From Mesonia mobilis DSM 19841 (lineage in GTDB: Bacteria > Bacteroidota > Bacteroidia > Flavobacteriales > Flavobacteriaceae), in the NCBI RefSeq assembly GCF_000423405.1, contig NZ_AUHX01000001.1:248001-312000 (forward strand): a stretch of 64,000 nucleotides of DNA. Reading direction: 5' to 3'. Positions 31,321 to 39,883 of this stretch are shown one piece after another. Both the position numbers and the translations under genes were made by a program. Position 1 is the stretch's first letter. Each line of letters starts with the position of its first letter. A model generated the notes under the pieces. It ran no database searches. It was not told the DNA's origin and saw nothing but the letters and a program-made list of their open reading frames with translations.

Positions 31321-32613
31321 TTATTTTTTTAAAAATAATTTTAATTCATCGTAATTTTTTATTTTAATACTCTGTTTGTTATTTATTACTAATTCTTTGA
31401 TTTGTTGCGGAATAGCTATTTTAGTTGAAAGTGTTTCTTCAACAGTTTCTAAAAACTTTACGGGATGAGCTGTTTCTAGAAATATACCCAAAGCATCGGG
31501 AAATTCTTCTTTTATCTTTTGCCAACCTAAATAACCCACGGCACCGTGAGGATCTGTAATGTAATTAGTTTTTGTATAAATTTCTTTCATCGCCTTTTTA
31601 GTTTCGTCATCACTAAAACTAAAAGAAGTAAAAGTTTCTTTTAAAGCTTCAGTATCATTGCTGTAGAGTTGCTGAATTCTTACAAAATTGCTAGGATCGC
31701 CAACATCCATCGCATTAGAAATGGTTGCTGTGGAAGGCTTTGCTGAATAAGTTCCTGTTTTTAAAAACTGCGGAACAGTATCGTTCAAATTGGTTGCGGC
31801 CACGAAAAACTCAATTGGTAAACCTAGACTTTTAGCCAGCATTCCTGCACAAATATTTCCGAAATTTCCACTGGGAACCGAGAACACTAATTTTTTATGT
31901 AAGGGTTTTAATTCTTTATACGCAAAGAAATAATAGAACATTTGTGGTAACCAACGCGCAACATTTATAGAGTTGGCTGAAGTTAAATTTAACGTACTCA
32001 ATTCTTCATCTAAAAAAGCTTGTTTTACCATTGCCTGGCAATCGTCAAACGTCCCATCAACTTCTAAAGCGGTAATATTTTGACCTAAAGTGGTAAGTTG
32101 TTTTTCTTGAATTTCAGATACTTTCCCGCTTGGGTAGAGAATAATTACTTCAACACCTTCCACACCTAAAAAACCGTGAGCAACTGCGCCACCGGTATCG
32201 CCGGAAGTAGCTACCAACACCCGAATTTTCTGATCTTTTTTATTTCTATTGAAATAACCTAAACAACGCGCCATAAACCGTGCGCCAACATCTTTAAAAG
32301 CCATCGTGGGGCCGTGAAAAAGTTCTAAAGAATAAGTTCGTTCATCCAATTTTACTAACGGAAAATCAAAGTTTAAAGTTTCTGCTATAATTTTGCGGAG
32401 TTCTTTCTTCGGAATTGATTTGTTCACGAACTGTCGAATTACTTCATAAGCAATTTGTTCGTTACTCATAAACTCAATGGTTTCTAGCATTAATTTATCG
32501 AGCGGAATTAAACTTTCCGGGAAATATAAGCCTTTGTCGGGCGCAATTCCGTTAACCGTGGCTTCTTCAAAATTTACGGTTGGTGCTTTATGATTTAAAC
32601 TGAAATAATTCAT
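31321..32613 (-). CDS. thrC: Threonine synthase
   Basis: A 430-residue PLP enzyme converting O-phosphohomoserine to threonine. The PLP lysine lies in LFHGPTMAFKDVGARFMAR; ATSGDTGGAVAHGFLG and SVPSGNFGNICAGMLAKSLG bind the cofactor phosphate and substrate. It begins with MNYFSLNHKAPTVNFEEA as in other bacterial class II-type enzymes. It is the third gene of the thr operon; the 88-base gap after thrB contains a dispersed palindromic repeat. Confidence 0.96.
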   Translation of the reverse strand: MNYFSLNHKAPTVNFEEATVNGIAPDKGLYFPESLIPLDKLMLETIEFMSNEQIAYEVIRQFVNKSIPKKELRKIIAETLNFDFPLVKLDERTYSLELFHGPTMAFKDVGARFMARCLGYFNRNKKDQKIRVLVATSGDTGGAVAHGFLGVEGVEVIILYPSGKVSEIQEKQLTTLGQNITALEVDGTFDDCQAMVKQAFLDEELSTLNLTSANSINVARWLPQMFYYFFAYKELKPLHKKLVFSVPSGNFGNICAGMLAKSLGLPIEFFVAATNLNDTVPQFLKTGTYSAKPSTATISNAMDVGDPSNFVRIQQLYSNDTEALKETFTSFSFSDDETKKAMKEIYTKTNYITDPHGAVGYLGWQKIKEEFPDALGIFLETAHPVKFLETVEETLSTKIAIPQQIKELVINNKQSIKIKNYDELKLFLKK

Positions 32614-32701: not shown

Positions 32702-33625
32702 CTAAAGAATTTTTATCCCATCTCGATTAATTTTAGAAACGTGAATATCATAGGCTACTTCAAATTTACGATAAACCTCTGCCATCGCAGCAGCGATTTG
32801 ATTTGCGGTGGCTTCATCTTTACTCAGTGCAAAAATGGAAGGGCCGGAGCCGGAAATTCCGCTGCCTAAAGCTCCGTTTTTCAGTGCAGTTGCTTTAACT
32901 TCATTAAAACCGGGAATAAGCACGCTTCGCAAGGGTTCGACTATTTCATCGTGTAAACATCTCGCTAACAATTCATAATCACTCGTATATAAAGCACTAA
33001 TTAAACCGGCCAAATTTCCCCATTGGGTAATCGCGTTTTTTAAGGAAACAGAATGTTTTAAAACCGAACGCGCATCGGCAGTTTTCACTTCTAACTGCGG
33101 ATGAATCACCGTTCCTATTAATTGTTCAGGCACCGGAAGTTTTATCACATCAAGCGGATCATAACTTCTTACGAGCGTAAAACCGCCCAAAAGGGCAGGA
33201 GCAACATTATCGGCGTGTAAAGCGCCACTAGCTAATAATTCACCTTGCATTGCAAACGGAATCAATTCTTTTGCTGAAAAAGGTTCATCGAGTAATTGAT
33301 TAATACCGAAAACCGCTCCGGCTGCACTCGCAGCGCTACTCCCGATCCCGCTACCGGGTTTGATTTTTTTATAGATTTCAATTTCGAAACCTGCTTTTAG
33401 TTCTTTTAGATCATTTAATAAAGCTAAACCGGCAACTCCGGCAACATTTTTTTCAGTTTCTAATGGTAAATCCTGACCAACAATTTTAGTGATTTGTATA
33501 CCCGGAGTTTTCGATTTTCTAATGATCATCTCATCACCGGGTTGTTCTAAACAAAGTCCGAGAACATCGAAACCACAAGAAACATTGGCAATGGTAGCCG
33601 GGCAAAATAGTTTAATTTCTTCCAT
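32702..33625 (-). CDS. thrB: Homoserine kinase
   Basis: A 307-residue GHMP kinase that phosphorylates homoserine with ATP. Marks are the start LFCPATIANVSCGFDVLGL, the phosphate-binding loop KPGSGIGSSAASAAGAVFG, DNVAPALLGGFTLVR and the C-terminal GSGISGSGPSIFAL. It starts three bases after the thrA stop, so both are co-transcribed. Confidence 0.96.
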   Translation of the reverse strand: MEEIKLFCPATIANVSCGFDVLGLCLEQPGDEMIIRKSKTPGIQITKIVGQDLPLETEKNVAGVAGLALLNDLKELKAGFEIEIYKKIKPGSGIGSSAASAAGAVFGINQLLDEPFSAKELIPFAMQGELLASGALHADNVAPALLGGFTLVRSYDPLDVIKLPVPEQLIGTVIHPQLEVKTADARSVLKHSVSLKNAITQWGNLAGLISALYTSDYELLARCLHDEIVEPLRSVLIPGFNEVKATALKNGALGSGISGSGPSIFALSKDEATANQIAAAMAEVYRKFEVAYDIHVSKINRDGIKIL

Positions 33626-33628
33626 TGC

Positions 33629-36076
33629 TTAATAATTTCCAATTCGTATAATATCGGCAAAAATTCCTGATGCCGTTACATCGGCTCCGGCTCCGGCACC
33701 TTTGATGATCAAGGGTTGTTCAACATATCTTTCGGTATAAAACAACACGATGTTGTCTTTACCTTCTAGATTGTAAAATGGGTGATGCTGCGGAATTTCT
33801 TCTAACCCAACACTTGCTTTTCCGTTATTAAATTGCGCGACGTATTTGAGTCGGCTATTGTTTTGTTGAGCGCTTTTGAATAATTGATTAAAATGTGATT
33901 TATGTTTCTCTAAACTTTTAAAAAATTCTTCAACATTTTCAGTTTTTAAACATTCTTCCGGTAAAAATGATTCATTTTGAATATCGTCTAATTCTAAGCT
34001 ATAACCACTTTCACGAGCGAGAATAAGTATTTTTCGCATCACATCGATTCCGCTTAAATCTATTTTAGGATCTGGTTCTGTATAACCTTCAACTTGGGCT
34101 TGTTTTACCACCTCGACAAATTCGTGATCGTCATTAAAATTATTGAATACAAAATTTAAACTTCCTGAAAGAACCGCTTGAATTTTAGTGATCTTATCTC
34201 CAGAAGCTACTAAATTTTTCAAAGTATCGATAATCGGTAAACCGGCGCCAACATTCGTTTCAAATAAAAATGGAGCGTTGTAATCTCGGGAAAGTTGCTT
34301 TAGTTCTGCATAATTTTCGTAAGCTGAAGAACTTGCAATTTTATTACAGGTCACCACCGAAATACTATTTTTTAAATATTGCGCATAAGTAGCAGCAATA
34401 ACATCATTAGCTGTGTTATCTACGAAAATACTGTTGCGTAAATTCATCGATTTTATTTTTTCAAAAAATAAATCTTTGTCGGCTTTTTCTCCATTTTCAA
34501 GTTGTGTTTCCCAGTTTTTAAGCGAAATTCCGCCTTCTTGAAAATGCATTTTTCGAGAGTTAGAAAGCGCGATTACGCGAACATTCAGTTTTAAATTCTC
34601 TTTTAAAAAATTCTTCTGTTGCTGAATTTGCTTTAAAAATTTAGCTCCAACATTTCCTACGCCCATCACAAATAGATTGAGTTGCTTGACGTTTTCTTCA
34701 AAAAATCGTTCGTGAAGCGTATTTAGAGCCTTTTTTACATCTTCTTTTTTAATAACGGCAGAAATATTTCGCTCTGAAGCTCCTTGAGCGATCACACGGA
34801 TGTTCACATTATTTTTACCTAAAGCGCTAAACATTTTTCCGCTTAGGCCTTGATGACTTTTCATATTATCGCCTACCAATGCAATTATGGCCTGATCGTT
34901 TTCTACAAGAACCGGTTTTATGCGATGCAAAGAAATCTCGTAAGCAAAAGATTGGTCGAGCGCTTCTTTCGCTTTTTCTGCATCTTCACTGGCAATAGCA
35001 ACACAAATGCTGTGTTCTGATGAAGCTTGTGTGATAAGCACCACGCTAATTTGGTTGACAGATAATACTTCAAAAAAACGTTTAGAAATACCCGGAATAC
35101 CAACCATTCCAGGACCTTCGAGTGAAAGCAAACTAATATTTTCAATATGACTTATTCCACGAACGGGGCGATTTTTACCATTGGTGTTTTTGGTAATGAG
35201 CGTTCCTTTTTCATGGGGTAAGAACGTATTTTTGATATGAATAGGAATTTCTTTAGCTAAAACAGGCTGAATAGTTGGCGGATACAAGACTTTCGCTCCA
35301 AAATGAGAAAGTTCCATCGCTTCTTGATACGAAATCTCTTCAATAGCCTTTGCTTGCTTCACCAAACGCGGATTGGCAGTGAACATTCCGCTAACGTCAG
35401 TCCAGATTTTTAAAACTTCAGCATTTAAAGCAGCAGCAACAATCGCCGCCGTATAATCTGAACCGCCGCGACCCAAAGTGGTCGAATCTCCAGAAAGGGA
35501 AGAAGCCACAAAACCCGGCATTAAACAAACCTGTGCTTCAGCTTCAGCAATATTTTCAATTAGATTTTTCTGAGTGATTTCAAAATTTACTACCGCTTTA
35601 CCGAATTGATTATTGGTTTTAATAAATTCTCTACTGTCTTTGTATGCACACGAAATTCCTTCCGCAGAGAAATAACTATGAATAATTTTTGAAGAGAGTA
35701 ATTCGCCATAACCTAGAATTTTATCTAAAAGTTTCGGAGTGGTTTCGCCAATTAAAAAAGCGCCTTCTAATAAAGTTTCTAACGTATTGAGTTCTCGTTT
35801 TAAGAAACTCATCACCGAGCTTTGTTGTTGAACGGGAATTAATTTTTTGACAACCTCTAGATGTTTTTTTTCAATTAACATAAAGGTTTCGCGATATTCT
35901 TCTTTTTGTTGACTTGCTAAAAATGCGGAGTCTAGAAGTAAATCGGTTACGCCGCCAAGTGCTGAAACCACGACGCATAAGCGCTTAGATTTTGCTTGTT
36001 GTTGAACAATATTTTTTACGAGTTGTATATTTTCTGCATTCGCTACAGAAGTCCCTCCAAATTTGAGAACTTTCAT
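33629..36076 (-). CDS. thrA: Bifunctional aspartokinase / homoserine dehydrogenase
   Basis: A fused enzyme that catalyses the first and third steps from aspartate to homoserine. I start at MKVLKFGGTSVANAENI (36076, 815 residues) because the upstream in-frame Met at 36127 adds a non-conserved leader. The aspartokinase part (about 1-290) has LGRGGSDYTAAIVAAAL; paired ACT domains (about 310-460) have GPGMVGIPGISKRFFEVL; the dehydrogenase part begins with FVMGVGNVGAKFLKQI and ends with the GAGAGADVTASGIFADIIRI segment. The ACT domains suggest threonine feedback. A Thr/Ile-rich leader peptide lies directly upstream. Confidence 0.95.
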   Translation of the reverse strand: MKVLKFGGTSVANAENIQLVKNIVQQQAKSKRLCVVVSALGGVTDLLLDSAFLASQQKEEYRETFMLIEKKHLEVVKKLIPVQQQSSVMSFLKRELNTLETLLEGAFLIGETTPKLLDKILGYGELLSSKIIHSYFSAEGISCAYKDSREFIKTNNQFGKAVVNFEITQKNLIENIAEAEAQVCLMPGFVASSLSGDSTTLGRGGSDYTAAIVAAALNAEVLKIWTDVSGMFTANPRLVKQAKAIEEISYQEAMELSHFGAKVLYPPTIQPVLAKEIPIHIKNTFLPHEKGTLITKNTNGKNRPVRGISHIENISLLSLEGPGMVGIPGISKRFFEVLSVNQISVVLITQASSEHSICVAIASEDAEKAKEALDQSFAYEISLHRIKPVLVENDQAIIALVGDNMKSHQGLSGKMFSALGKNNVNIRVIAQGASERNISAVIKKEDVKKALNTLHERFFEENVKQLNLFVMGVGNVGAKFLKQIQQQKNFLKENLKLNVRVIALSNSRKMHFQEGGISLKNWETQLENGEKADKDLFFEKIKSMNLRNSIFVDNTANDVIAATYAQYLKNSISVVTCNKIASSSAYENYAELKQLSRDYNAPFLFETNVGAGLPIIDTLKNLVASGDKITKIQAVLSGSLNFVFNNFNDDHEFVEVVKQAQVEGYTEPDPKIDLSGIDVMRKILILARESGYSLELDDIQNESFLPEECLKTENVEEFFKSLEKHKSHFNQLFKSAQQNNSRLKYVAQFNNGKASVGLEEIPQHHPFYNLEGKDNIVLFYTERYVEQPLIIKGAGAGADVTASGIFADIIRIGNY

Positions 36077-36158
36077 AAGTTTTGCTTTTAGATGAAATGG
36101 AAAATGTGATTCGGTCTGTAAAAACAAACCAATATAACCTAAGGATGATATGAATTAT

Positions 36159-36260
36159 TTATACCCCAAACGGGGTAATGGTAGTGATTGTAGAAATAGC
36201 AATACTGCCCGAAGTAGAAATTTCGGTAAATATTAAAGATATGTTATTGCTATGTATCAT
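36159..36260 (-). CDS. thr operon leader peptide, 33 aa
   Basis: On the minus strand an ATG at 36260 opens a 33-codon ORF ending at TAA 36159, 82 bases before thrA. It encodes eight Ile and six Thr residues, including the run STITTIT near its end, strikingly like the regulatory codons of E. coli ThrL (ISTTITTTITITT). A promoter with both Bacteroidota elements lies immediately upstream. The last codons form a stem, TACCCC-GTTT-GGGGTA. I infer ribosome-stalling control of thrABC by charged tRNA-Thr and tRNA-Ile levels. The downstream terminator half is not obvious, so the exact switch is open. Confidence 0.75.
   Translation of the reverse strand: MIHSNNISLIFTEISTSGSIAISTITTITPFGV
36163..36178 (-). 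promoter_or_regulatory. Hairpin at the end of the thr leader ORF
   Basis: TACCCC-GTTT-GGGGTA is a perfect 6-base-pair stem with a 4-base loop covering the final codons. It is followed by an A/T-rich stretch rather than a clean T-run. A ribosome stalled on the Thr/Ile codons would prevent its formation, so it may be the switching element. Confidence 0.5.
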
Positions 36261-36276
36261 AAGAATGTATCCATCT

Positions 36277-36307
36277 CAAATGTATTACATTTATATAGAG
36301 AAACCAA
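36277..36307 (-). promoter_or_regulatory. Promoter of the thr operon
   Basis: On the minus strand TTG (36307-36305) and TACATTTG (36284-36277, perfect TAnnTTTG) are separated by 20 bases. Transcription would begin around 36271, about ten bases before the leader-peptide ATG, so the leader is the first translated ORF of the transcript. Confidence 0.7.
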
Positions 36308-36358
36308 GCGGTTTAGAGAAATTGATAGTTTAATAATTTTTGAAATATATTTTGAATA

Positions 36359-37864
36359 ATGAAAATTTTTAACAAAGGAAAACTCAAGGAAGCTGATGAA
36401 TTCACAATAAAAGAGCAAAATATTAGTAGTGACGAACTGATGGAGCGAGCGGCGATTCAGCTTTTTGGATGGTTAAAAACACAATTAAAAGAAAACCGAC
36501 CAAAAATTAATTTGTTTTGCGGAATAGGAAATAACGGTGGCGACGGATTGGCTTTAGCGCGTTTATTGTTGAATGATGGTTATGAAGTAGAAGTTTATAT
36601 TGTGAACTTTAGTGATAAACGATCGGATGATTTTCTGCTGAATTTAAAACGATTAAAAGAACATCAATTTTGGCCAGAATTTATTAATGAAAATTCAGAT
36701 CTACCGGAATTAAATCAAGGGGAAATTGTAATTGATGCTATTTTCGGGATCGGTTTAAATCGGCCGGCAGAAGGTTGGATCAAAGAATTAATTCAGCATA
36801 TCAATCAATCAAAATCTTATGTAATTGCGGTTGATGTACCTTCCGGGTTATATTTAGATAAAGCACCCGAAGTTCCTGAAGCAATTATAAAAGCAGAAAC
36901 AACCATTACTTTTCAACTCCCAAAATTAGTTTTCTTTTTACCGGAAACTGCAGAATTTGCCGGTCGTGTAGAGATCGCAGATATTGGTTTAGACCAAAAT
37001 TTTATTGCCAAAACAGCTTCAGAAGCCTTATTAATTCAGCAACACGACGCGCAACGTTTATATAAACCTAGAGGAAAATTTTCACATAAAGGTACGTTTG
37101 GGCATTGTTTAGTGGCCGGCGGAAGTTATGGCAAAATGGGAAGTGTTTTATTAGCGACCAAAGCAGCGTTAAGAGTTGGAGTAGGGAAAGTGAGTGCGTT
37201 AATCCCGAAATGTGGTTACGATATTTTACAATTAGGCATTCCGGAAGCGATGGTGATCACTGCTGAAAATGAAAAATTTTTAGAAAAAACGACTATCGAT
37301 TTTACACCTGAAAGTATTTGTTTTGGGATTGGCGCCGGAAAAGAAGAAGCGACCAAAGAATATTTAGAACAGCTTTTAAAAGAAAGAACCGCTCCACTAT
37401 TAATCGACGCAGACGGAATTAATATTTTAGCTGAAAACCAAGAATTGTTAAATTATTTGCCGGAAAAATCAATCTTAACGCCACATCCCGGAGAATTGAA
37501 ACGTTTGCTAGGAGAGTGGGAAGATGATTTTGATAAACTGGAGAAAGCCAAAGCATTTTCTTTAAAATATAAAGTGATTGTAGTAATTAAAGGCGCATAT
37601 ACAATCACGATCGCCGATAAAAATTTATATATAAACTCTACAGGAAACCCGGGAATGGCAACTGCCGGAAGTGGCGATACCTTGTCGGGAATAATTGCTG
37701 GATTGGTGGCTCAAGGTTATGATGCAACCATCGCAGCGGTTTTCGGAGTTTACTTACACGGAAAAGCCGGTGATCTGGCAGCAGAAAAATTAGGTTTTGA
37801 AGCGGTAATCGCCGATGATCTTATTCAGCATTTGGGAGAAGCGTATAAAAGTTTGTTTGAATAA
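36359..37864 (+). CDS. nnr: Bifunctional NAD(P)HX epimerase / ADP-dependent NAD(P)HX dehydratase
   Basis: A 501-residue metabolite-repair enzyme restoring hydrated NADH and NADPH. The N-terminal YjeF epimerase domain (about 1-215) has NLFCGIGNNGGDGLALARLL and AVDVPSGLYLD. The C-terminal ribokinase-like dehydratase (about 225-500) has GTFGHCLVAGGSYGKMGSVL, ILTPHPGELKRLLG and the NPGMATAGSGDTLSGIIAGL motif. The fusion is the common bacterial form. It diverges from the thr operon. Confidence 0.95.
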   Translation: MKIFNKGKLKEADEFTIKEQNISSDELMERAAIQLFGWLKTQLKENRPKINLFCGIGNNGGDGLALARLLLNDGYEVEVYIVNFSDKRSDDFLLNLKRLKEHQFWPEFINENSDLPELNQGEIVIDAIFGIGLNRPAEGWIKELIQHINQSKSYVIAVDVPSGLYLDKAPEVPEAIIKAETTITFQLPKLVFFLPETAEFAGRVEIADIGLDQNFIAKTASEALLIQQHDAQRLYKPRGKFSHKGTFGHCLVAGGSYGKMGSVLLATKAALRVGVGKVSALIPKCGYDILQLGIPEAMVITAENEKFLEKTTIDFTPESICFGIGAGKEEATKEYLEQLLKERTAPLLIDADGINILAENQELLNYLPEKSILTPHPGELKRLLGEWEDDFDKLEKAKAFSLKYKVIVVIKGAYTITIADKNLYINSTGNPGMATAGSGDTLSGIIAGLVAQGYDATIAAVFGVYLHGKAGDLAAEKLGFEAVIADDLIQHLGEAYKSLFE

Positions 37865-37946
37865 TACTTAATAGTTGAGAAAAGACTTGGATATTTTGTA
37901 AGATATCTTCAATTTTGAAGCTCAATATTAACAATTGTTTAAAGAA

Positions 37947-39461
37947 ATGAGAGAAACCCATTATATAAGTCGAGAAATTTTAGATCTACCTCAAATTCAG
38001 CAGATTCTAGAAGAAAATAAATTATTGGCATTAAGTGACGAAGCAAAATTAAGTATCGATAAAGCCAGAAATTACCTCGATCAAAAAATGGATGCTTCTC
38101 AGGAGCCTTTCTACGGAATTAATACCGGGTTTGGTTCTTTATGTAATGTGAAAATCTCTAGAGAACATTTAGTTCAGTTGCAAGAAAATTTAGTGATTTC
38201 TCATGCTTGTGGAACCGGCGATAAGGTGAATTCGAAAATCGTAAAGCTAATGTTATTGCTGAAAATACAATCCTTAAGCTACGGAAATTCAGGAATTACC
38301 CAAGAAGTGGTTTTACGCCTCATCGACTTTTTTAACGAAGATGTGTTACCGGTAGTTTACGAACAAGGTTCTTTGGGAGCTTCAGGAGATTTATCGCCAT
38401 TGGCACATTTATCGCTTCCGCTTTTGGGTAGAGGTGAAGTTGAAGTAGATGGAAAAATTTATTCTTCCGCAGAAATTCTTCAGCAAAAAGGTTGGGAGAA
38501 AATAAATTTACGTTCCAAAGAAGGTTTAGCTTTATTAAACGGAACGCAGTTTATGAGCGCTCACGCCGTATTTTCTTTAATTGAAGCTTATAAATTATCG
38601 TATTTAGCAGATGCGATCGGAGCCGTTTCTGTAGATGGTTTTGATTGTAATCTTTCGCCTTTCGACCCGCTCGTACATTACGTGCGACCACATCGCGGAC
38701 AAGTAAAAACTGCCGAACGCATCTTAGAATTTTTAGACGGAAGCGAAATTGCAGAAAAAGTAAAAGAAAGTATTCAAGATCCTTATTCATTTAGATGTAT
38801 ACCGCAGGTTCACGGAGCTACAAAAGATACGATTCGGTTTGTACATCAAACGGTGAAGACAGAGATTAATAGTGTTACCGACAATCCGAATATTTTTGTT
38901 GAAGAAGATAAAATTATTTCCGGCGGAAATTTTCACGGTCAGCCTTTGGCTTTAGCGATGGATTATTTAGCAATTGCTTTAGCAGAATTGGCAAATATTT
39001 CTGAACGTAGAATTTATCAATTAGTTTCTGGTTTACGTGATTTACCTATGTTTTTGGTAGACGATCCCGGTTTAAATAACGGGTTTATGATTCCGCAATA
39101 TACCGCGGCGAGTATTGTAAGCCAAAATAAACAATTATGTACGCCTGCGAGTGTAGATTCGATTGTTTCTTCAAACGGACAGGAAGATCACGTGAGTATG
39201 GGTGCAAATGCTGCTACGAAATTGATAAAAGTCGTAGAGAATTTAAAATCGGTTTTAGCGATCGAATTGTTTAATGCTTCGCAAGCACTTTATTATCGCG
39301 AGCCATTACAATCTTCTAATTTTATTATGCAATTGGTAAACAGTTTTAGAGAAGAAGTTCCAGTAGTTAAGCAAGATAAAGTAATGGCAGAAGAAATTGC
39401 TAAGGCTAAACTCTATATCAATCAGTTTGGTATCGATCAAGAGATTTTGTTTGAAAATTAA
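37947..39461 (+). CDS. hutH: Histidine ammonia-lyase
   Basis: A 504-residue lyase that deaminates histidine to urocanate. The MIO cofactor forms from Ala145-Ser146-Gly147 in GSLGASGDLSPLAHLSLP. Other marks are FYGINTGFGSLCNV and VTDNPNIFVEEDKIISGGNFHGQ. An in-frame TTG at 37935 would add four residues; I prefer the ATG at 37947. No hutU, hutI or hutG lies in the window, so the rest of the pathway must be elsewhere. A perfect palindromic terminator follows. Confidence 0.95.
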   Translation: MRETHYISREILDLPQIQQILEENKLLALSDEAKLSIDKARNYLDQKMDASQEPFYGINTGFGSLCNVKISREHLVQLQENLVISHACGTGDKVNSKIVKLMLLLKIQSLSYGNSGITQEVVLRLIDFFNEDVLPVVYEQGSLGASGDLSPLAHLSLPLLGRGEVEVDGKIYSSAEILQQKGWEKINLRSKEGLALLNGTQFMSAHAVFSLIEAYKLSYLADAIGAVSVDGFDCNLSPFDPLVHYVRPHRGQVKTAERILEFLDGSEIAEKVKESIQDPYSFRCIPQVHGATKDTIRFVHQTVKTEINSVTDNPNIFVEEDKIISGGNFHGQPLALAMDYLAIALAELANISERRIYQLVSGLRDLPMFLVDDPGLNNGFMIPQYTAASIVSQNKQLCTPASVDSIVSSNGQEDHVSMGANAATKLIKVVENLKSVLAIELFNASQALYYREPLQSSNFIMQLVNSFREEVPVVKQDKVMAEEIAKAKLYINQFGIDQEILFEN

Positions 39462-39469
39462 AGATCATT

Positions 39470-39503
39470 AAAAAACGGCAATTAAATTTAATTGCCGTTT
39501 TTT
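39470..39503. terminator. Bidirectional intrinsic terminator after hutH
   Basis: A 34-base perfect palindrome centred on ATTAAATTTAAT with arms AAAAAACGGCA / TGCCGTTTTTT. The stop codon of the decayed minus-strand gene lies inside it. Confidence 0.92.
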
Positions 39504-39883
39504 AGTTGTAACTCTTTGCATACAATACTGCTTTTAAAGTCTTGATAGCTTTCAAAAGAATAGCAAGATATGGTGGTAAACACTTTAACAAATTCTAGAT
39601 TCTGAAAATCGTTTTCTTTTTCAGAAATAACCGTTACCCATTTGGCGTGATTTTCGAATTTTTCTTTTTCATTAATGAGAATAGATGGATCGAAAGAGTA
39701 GGCATGATCAAGATTTTGCTTAATAATTAAGACACCAACTTTATGATCGTTGAAATGATTCTTTTTAATTTGAAATGATTGCTGAAGTAATTCAGCATCA
39801 AAATGGCATTCGTGTAATAGTTATAATTCTAAATGATCGTGATGAACAATTAAATTAGCATTAGTTAATTGATAAGTTTTCAA
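39488..39883 (-). pseudogene. Stop-interrupted paralog of the 121-aa protein at 40018-40383
   Basis: The minus strand from about TTG 39883 to TAA 39490-39488 encodes a protein alignable with the intact neighbour: HHDHLEL-stop-LLHECHF against AHHIELFIKPETHL, then VGVLIIKQNLDHAYSFDPSIL against VGLIVVREGQNHYYSIDPLIF, and FENHAKWVTVISEKENDFQNL against FETHLKWYALVSPNKSGFQNL. An in-frame TAA interrupts the frame where the intact copy has Phe, and no ATG opens the frame. Everything downstream of the stop stays in frame, so decay is recent, or the region is read in an unusual way. It explains most of the 556-base gap between hutH and the next gene. Confidence 0.7.

Follow-up and report, generated by a model that had tools for sequence, protein, structure and literature searches.

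A Threonine- and Isoleucine-Rich Leader Peptide Upstream of thrABC in Mesonia mobilis: a Candidate Switch Without an Intrinsic Terminator

Results and Discussion

The window analysed here, a 64,000-nucleotide stretch of Mesonia mobilis DSM 19841 in its entirety, carries on its minus strand three consecutive genes which had been predicted to form a thrABC operon, and the Pfam domains of the encoded proteins agree with this assignment. Upstream of thrA lies a small open reading frame (MIHSNNISLIFTEISTSGSIAISTITTITPFGV) of 33 codons, read from 36260 to 36159, whose stop codon is followed by the thrA start after 82 nt. The elements discussed below are the following.

33629 to 36076, minus strand: thrA, fused aspartate kinase/homoserine dehydrogenase (Pfam AA_kinase, ACT, Homoserine_dh)
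32702 to 33625, minus strand: thrB, homoserine kinase of the GHMP type (Pfam GHMP kinase domains; homoserine kinase from the operon context)
31321 to 32613, minus strand: thrC, threonine synthase (Pfam Thr_synth_N, PALP)
36277 to 36307, minus strand: putative promoter for the leader transcript, Bacteroidota type, TTG-N20-TACATTTG (from the sequence and from TAnnTTTG in relatives)
36159 to 36260, minus strand: ORF of the leader peptide, the coordinates covering 33 codons and the stop; frame open in 120 of 120 relatives
36196 to 36253, minus strand: hairpin P2 within the ORF, outer arms ATAGCAATA/TATTGCTAT, inner arms CCGAA (36226-36222)/TTCGG (36213-36209)
36174 to 36194, minus strand: putative regulatory codon run STITTIT (from the sequence; the Thr share climbs toward the hairpin in relatives)
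36162 to 36177, minus strand: hairpin P3, TACCCC-GTTT-GGGGTA, six pairs, own fold z -2.22 against 60 shuffles
36143 to 36152, minus strand: motif R2, CATATCATCC, with ATAT 9-13 nt after P3 in relatives
36111 to 36132, minus strand: hairpin P4, TTGGTTTGT-TTTT-ACAGACCGA, about 30 nt past P3 and with no U tract behind it

The ORF contains eight Ile and six Thr codons including the run STITTIT, exactly as the original prediction had it. Across the window, 333 ORFs of 15-60 codons begin with ATG, and no second one has a run of this kind. The promoter proposed for the leader is likewise an exact match, with TTG at 36307-36305, the N20 spacer and TACATTTG at 36284-36277, and would place the ATG about 10-13 nt past the expected transcript start. 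The hairpin P3 had been described as following the run and preceding the stop. Indeed, the stop codon TAA (36161-36159) directly follows its 3' arm; its 5' arm, however, includes the final Thr codon, ACC (36176-36174), so that run and hairpin overlap.

For comparison, we collected the regions upstream of 175 thrA homologues, the paralogues L002-L004 having been dropped. The own-family sample comprises 111 loci, best-scoring or hand-picked from larger lists, while a thrA match exists in 329 of 395 family genomes. From the 175 we took as a 120-locus set those loci up to L149 that have a C/G hairpin preceded by A (L150-L178 were ineligible). All these loci are phylogenetically related, and their counts are therefore not independent.

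At 103 of the 111 own-family loci, Thr codons are immediately followed by a hairpin of the form CCC(C)-N-GGG(G), and the ORF together with its Thr/Ile codons is kept at all six thrA loci of the same genus, so that the conservation asked for by the original prediction is indeed seen. The hairpin-anchored leader also occurs outside the family, namely at 6/8 loci of family f4, 6/9 of f35, 4/5 of f17 and 1/1 of f2, and four further loci with a leader of this type belong to genus g337 of f16. None of the 11 f15 loci has it; they come from reduced genomes of 600 kb, in which thrA itself is kept. The remaining 30 loci, from 23 families, stand outside this count; among them are two f21 loci with flipped hairpin arms, CGGG-GUAA-CCCG (L161) and CGGG-GUGA-CCCG (L155), L070 of f22 with the close variant CCCGG-UAA-CCGGG behind Thr codons, and three f16 loci of a second, terminator-bearing kind discussed below. 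After L149 the hairpin pattern appears only in L168, L172 and L174, where no Thr-rich leader is listed. With the pattern used, the element is missing from eight family loci, among which L083 has such a leader farther upstream. Two more of these loci, L121 and L054, carry the promoter motif TAnnTTTG shortly before thrA and have apparently lost the leader.

Over the twelve codons up to the hairpin, in-frame stops are found in none of the 120 loci, compared with 26/120 and 20/120 for the other two frames. Thr makes up 41.2% and Ile 16.6% of the last 12 leader codons, the Thr at the final codon before the hairpin being fixed by the selection of the set and the 11 codons before it being free. At codon -11 the Thr share is 0.19, climbing to 0.52 at -5 and 0.62 at -1, with a range of 0.47 to 0.99 over the last six codons; Thr and Ile codons crowd within about 20 nt of P3. 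Each of the four Thr codons occurs (ACC 229, ACT 168, ACA 162, ACG 35). TAnnTTTG lies upstream of the leader at 103 of 120 loci, where 7.8 would be expected. In the stretch from the hairpin to thrA it occurs at eight, the M. mobilis sequence not being one of them. A transcription start of thrA downstream of the leader, which would speak against the original prediction, is thus not indicated by this promoter motif, the one means by which we looked for it.

Covariation is seen at the second pair outward from P3, which forms at 64 of 120 loci compared with 49.5+-4.9 in shuffles (reached in 5 of 2000), and is absent from the first, third and fourth outward pairs (87 vs 87.1, 31 vs 37.7 and 23 vs 23.7 over the 120 loci). 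Behind P3, the ATAT of R2 starts 9-13 nt past the hairpin at 98 of 120 loci compared with 9.7+-2.7 after shuffling, a motif and a spacing that were both picked after inspection. The motif has the form (C)ATATC-N-YCC; YCC or TTC follows shortly behind ATAT at 80 of these 98 loci, and the R2 columns are at least 90% conserved in 52 sequences selected from the 120. CATATC also occurs early in the leader (36238-36244) as well as in R2 (36143-36152), here and in a number of relatives, forming a direct repeat with no complementarity.

From 52 of the 120 loci we built a covariance model that covers the run, P3 and R2. Searched with strict filters against 120 whole family genomes, some of which are sources of the model, it gave a single match in 52 and none in 68. 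All 30 matches that were returned as loci lie just upstream of thrA; among the other 22, the match in G107 is probably false because it lies 36 kb from the thrA of that genome. As for other operons that might share P3, its pattern occurs at one other place only in the M. mobilis genome.

What could the leader do, if it acts on thrABC? One reading is translational attenuation, in which the position of the leader ribosome opens or closes the thrA start region and termination is at most a consequence. Structures that are opened by ribosomes and control translation are known, as described for toiL/topAI (PMC12121999), and a candidate long-range helix P1 between the leader start and R2 is partly supported in one clade: in 44 loci of the PLG type we count 151 paired cells compared with 138.4+-3.0, above all 2000 shuffles, with all five pairs formed at 11 loci (8.8 expected). 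Over all 120 loci, however, P1 shows no excess (mean z -0.08), and the distance from P3 to thrA varies from 64 to 173 nt (5th-95th percentile). A stretch of 60 nt around the thrA start shows no more structure than its shuffles do (mean z +0.26), which makes occlusion of this start unlikely, and we regard translational attenuation as improbable.

A second reading is control of mRNA stability, with a stalled ribosome and the hairpins P2-P4 shielding the transcript from nucleases; several hairpins and a conserved AU-rich motif in a leader devoid of a terminator would suit it. The segments TAGCAATA (36252-36245) and TATTGCTA (36204-36197), which had been thought able to pair inside the ORF, are both present, and the stem is kept at 6/6 loci of the genus; in certain other lineages this position is occupied by another stem. 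P2 ends just ahead of the Thr/Ile run. Against 60 shuffles, the own sequence gives a fold z of -2.98 for P2 and of -2.34 for the P4 region. For P2 the value is -1.35 in the own genus and +0.41 in the PLG clade, and for P4 it is -1.41 in the own genus, P4 being unseen in two clades. By energy both hairpins thus belong to some clades only and are not universal. In a clade of 11, P2 and P4 together have five pairs changed on both sides compared with 1.6+-1.1 (8 of 500 shuffles) and a covariation score of 0.167 vs 0.125 (2 of 500 shuffles); slid controls reach five pairs in three of six cases, with scores of at most 0.101 and 42-63% of cells paired vs 92%. P4 alone contributes four of its six pairs changed on both sides. 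The covariation is not significant in a Flavobacterium-like clade of 8, and in a 13-locus group with leader ends of the own type RNAalifold retains P3 alone. The stability reading leaves unexplained why Thr codons crowd so closely against P3 and why the spacing to R2 is fixed at 9-13 nt, and we give it a slim chance.

The textbook view of leader-peptide attenuation has terminator and antiterminator as its two alternatives, and the third reading is a classical thrL-type attenuator, in which a stalled ribosome selects an antiterminator over an intrinsic terminator before thrA. Leader composition and downstream gene are alike. The original prediction had already suspected that a canonical terminator is missing, and our scan bears this out: of 120 spacers separating the leader from thrA, one (L074) holds a canonical intrinsic terminator, compared with 0.6+-0.7 in shuffles, with none in the own sequence, none at the six loci of the genus and none in the four f16 g337 spacers. 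Scanning the whole leader plus spacer, we find terminator-like sites at 10 of 120 loci vs 3.4+-2.0 shuffled, by a scan that could miss bulged or weak terminators. Six of these ten sites are P3 with a T-rich tail, because of which P3 might have a weak terminator role in a few lineages. An antiterminator pairing of the GGGG arm with R2 is not supported, its duplex energy being no better than shuffled (mean z +0.30 over 120 loci); the PWGC clade, at -0.58, departs furthest in the opposite direction. Because no such alternative pairing of the GGGG arm is supported, we find no classical two-state fold. Another candidate, GGGGUA with UACUC before a U run, which had been noticed by eye in two clades, gave a mean z of 0.00 in a swap test of the stretch and is likewise not supported.

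Other thr leaders of related families do carry terminators. This second kind, found in f16 (which we infer to be Chitinophagaceae-like) and in genus g233 of f4, has an early Thr run in a short peptide with a longer tail, followed by a strong terminator hairpin and a U tract. By the same scan the terminator is present at 5/5 loci and then at 24/24 of f16 and 20/20 of f4 g233. As four loci of the initial five are contained in these larger sets, this amounts to 45/45 distinct loci. The 24 do not include L203 and L204, two of the 30 f16 loci sampled, which showed no leader. Both kinds coexist within f4 (g206 with the M. mobilis kind, g233 with the other) and within f16, where g337 (L185-L188) has the M. 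mobilis kind. The thrA of these four loci is 58-60% identical to that of M. mobilis, while other f16 thrA reach 45-48%, which suggests that thrA and its leader were probably transferred jointly and horizontally.

Two further leaders of M. mobilis serve as controls. Its hisG leader (MRQINLHHHHIHFHAQAR, His run HHHHIHFH, G000:C1 near 519686, L267) and its pheA leader (MKNVFTWNAYFYFYFFIRNRVGSAM, run FYFYFF, G000:C3 near 302725, L280) both end in strong intrinsic terminators, and within the genus such terminators are found at 14/14 his and 6/6 phe loci, five of the latter by the scan and the sixth (L284, a clipped record) by motif look-up. Because the his and phe leaders of the genus use intrinsic terminators, the lack of one at thr is, as far as sequence can tell, no habit of the lineage. 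The window itself contains an A-tract/U-tract hairpin (TAAAAAACGGCAATTAAATTTAATTGCCGTTTTTTA, 39469-39504) behind the gene at 37935-39461; it is likely a bidirectional terminator and suggests that strong intrinsic terminators are used here. Within the same genus, a close fused thrA (E <= 1e-150) is present in 6/16 genomes, the same six match PDT (pheA), and hisG is found in 14/16; synthesis of threonine and phenylalanine has possibly been lost in the other genomes.

Finally, the Rfam model Thr_leader finds nothing around the M. mobilis leader (36000-36420) even at E 10, and no Rfam family reaches its gathering score anywhere in the window. Among ten other loci, weak matches below the gathering score (E 0.0003 to 0.004) were obtained for three f16 loci only (L157-L159). 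A thrL-type switch is thus in our judgement highly unlikely at this locus.

That the ORF encodes a functional small protein would fit its conserved frame. The peptide, however, drifts freely outside the Thr/Ile run, its C-terminus is set by the coding of the hairpin (TPFGV, TPLG, TPWGC, or TP, the stop then lying in the loop) and its length runs from 12 to about 56 codons by machine-chosen starts, which makes this reading very improbable. A chance ORF is hardly conceivable: ACN Thr codons and CCCC/GGGG could arise in AT-rich DNA, but frame, composition and hairpin are conserved in relatives, the run is the only one of its kind in the window, and the 30 model matches returned as loci lie upstream of thrA.

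Proposed Mechanism

We consider it very probable that a leader peptide controls thrABC in one way or another, a regulation which we infer from the arrangement and conservation described above. When a charged tRNA is scarce, the ribosome slows at the matching codons, here Thr and Ile. The switch would accordingly read the supply of charged Thr-tRNA and probably also that of Ile-tRNA. This sensor step is well supported, while the output step can only be deduced. Because neither terminator nor antiterminator was found, the output seems unlike the usual terminator choice, and that something other than an intrinsic terminator serves as the output we hold to be quite probable. The reading we prefer, a cis-acting leader-peptide switch of thrABC that works through ribosome position and without an intrinsic terminator, appears to us reasonably probable as a whole.

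Two general points bear on the output. In a hairpin-stabilised pause, some 10-12 nt separate the hairpin from the RNA 3' end behind it, and Rho favours C-rich, G-poor RNA. The median C/G ratio over the 120 loci is 1.93 in the leader, 2.27 in the spacer and 0.76 in the first 60 nt of thrA. It is 0.95-1.19 in the terminator-bearing thr leaders, 1.43-1.44 at the four g337 loci and 0.96 in 31 other 5' regions of the window. Within the genus the thr leaders have 1.79 (6 loci), the his leaders 1.20 (14) and the phe leaders 0.83 (6, one of them mis-positioned). Part of this C excess comes from the ACN codons, and a rut site is not proven by base composition. A rho gene, encoding the Rho RNA-binding domain, is present in the genome.

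Because the spacing from P3 to R2 is pause-like, the transcript is C-rich and G-poor, and a rho gene is present, we favour a pause hairpin combined with Rho, albeit as a tentative choice of the particular output. P3 and R2 would then constitute a hairpin-stabilised pause site for RNA polymerase. With plentiful threonine, the ribosome would complete the leader at the stop codon in or behind P3 and leave, P3 would refold and the polymerase would pause at R2, allowing Rho, loaded on the C-rich, G-poor leader RNA, to terminate transcription ahead of thrA. Under threonine shortage, a ribosome stalled within the Thr run would cover the CCCC arm and hold P3 open; the pause would be lost and thrABC transcribed.

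One may even speculate about a second, terminator-independent class of leader-peptide switches. Here the regulatory codons would run directly into a pause hairpin, with ATAT-N-YCC at a set distance behind it, and the ribosome, by opening this hairpin, would govern a read-through that depends on Rho or on another factor. Such a class would share one genome with the classical terminator attenuators of his and phe and would have moved between families together with thrA; this generalisation we hold to be possible but doubtful. With a sensor conserved across several families, the terminator missing and the his and phe leaders of the genus keeping theirs, the output step becomes directly testable. 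This combination points to pausing and Rho, and Rho has received attention in Bacteroides through condensate formation, as noted in passages of PMC13269538.

Comparison with Known Systems

The closest relative by gene and composition is E. coli thrL (RF00506, Thr_leader), which also has a Thr/Ile-rich leader peptide upstream of thrABC. It differs from the element described here, in which no terminator/antiterminator pair was found, the hairpin overlaps the last Thr codon and no Rfam match exists. Because terminator and model match were both looked for and neither was found, we do not class the element with thrL/RF00506. Transcriptional pauses, some of them hairpin-stabilised, occur in thrL and other E. 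coli leaders, according to passages of PMC9291695. The second kind of thr leader (f16 and f4 g233) shares the gene and the Thr-rich leader and differs by its early Thr run and its terminator, while the his and phe leaders of the genus are peptides rich in the product amino acid before biosynthetic genes and differ by their textbook terminators.

A 2004 survey of attenuators reportedly mentions cases from Bacteroidetes/Chlorobi. The Bacteroid-trp RNA, which we take to be a trp leader, differs from the present element in that the window holds no match to any Rfam family that reaches the gathering score. This RNA (RF01692) is listed among the named cis-regulatory RNAs of Bacteroidetes in Table 1 of PMC2864571. 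For a thr element of this architecture, or for a terminator-less form of it, we found no description in open-licence papers.

Rho-dependent regulators with a leader peptide exist, mgtL being of this type. In toiL-topAI (PMC12121999), stalling on an upstream ORF feeds a Rho-dependent output, akin to our proposal; there the ribosome-binding site of topAI is occluded, whereas the thrA start is open. At the family level, a study of Flavobacterium psychrophilum provides a precedent for the attenuation of amino acid operons, reporting 64 structured 5' elements with clues to leader-peptide attenuation and naming elements of pheA and hisG; its section 19 contains no terminator-less design, and the words "threonine" and "thrA" are absent from its main text (PMC9723704). 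Leader-peptide attenuation in a flavobacterium is hence already in print in that study, while the architecture described here, with its regulatory codons running into P3 and R2 at a set distance behind, appears to be new as judged from open-licence papers and could enter Rfam as a leader family of its own.
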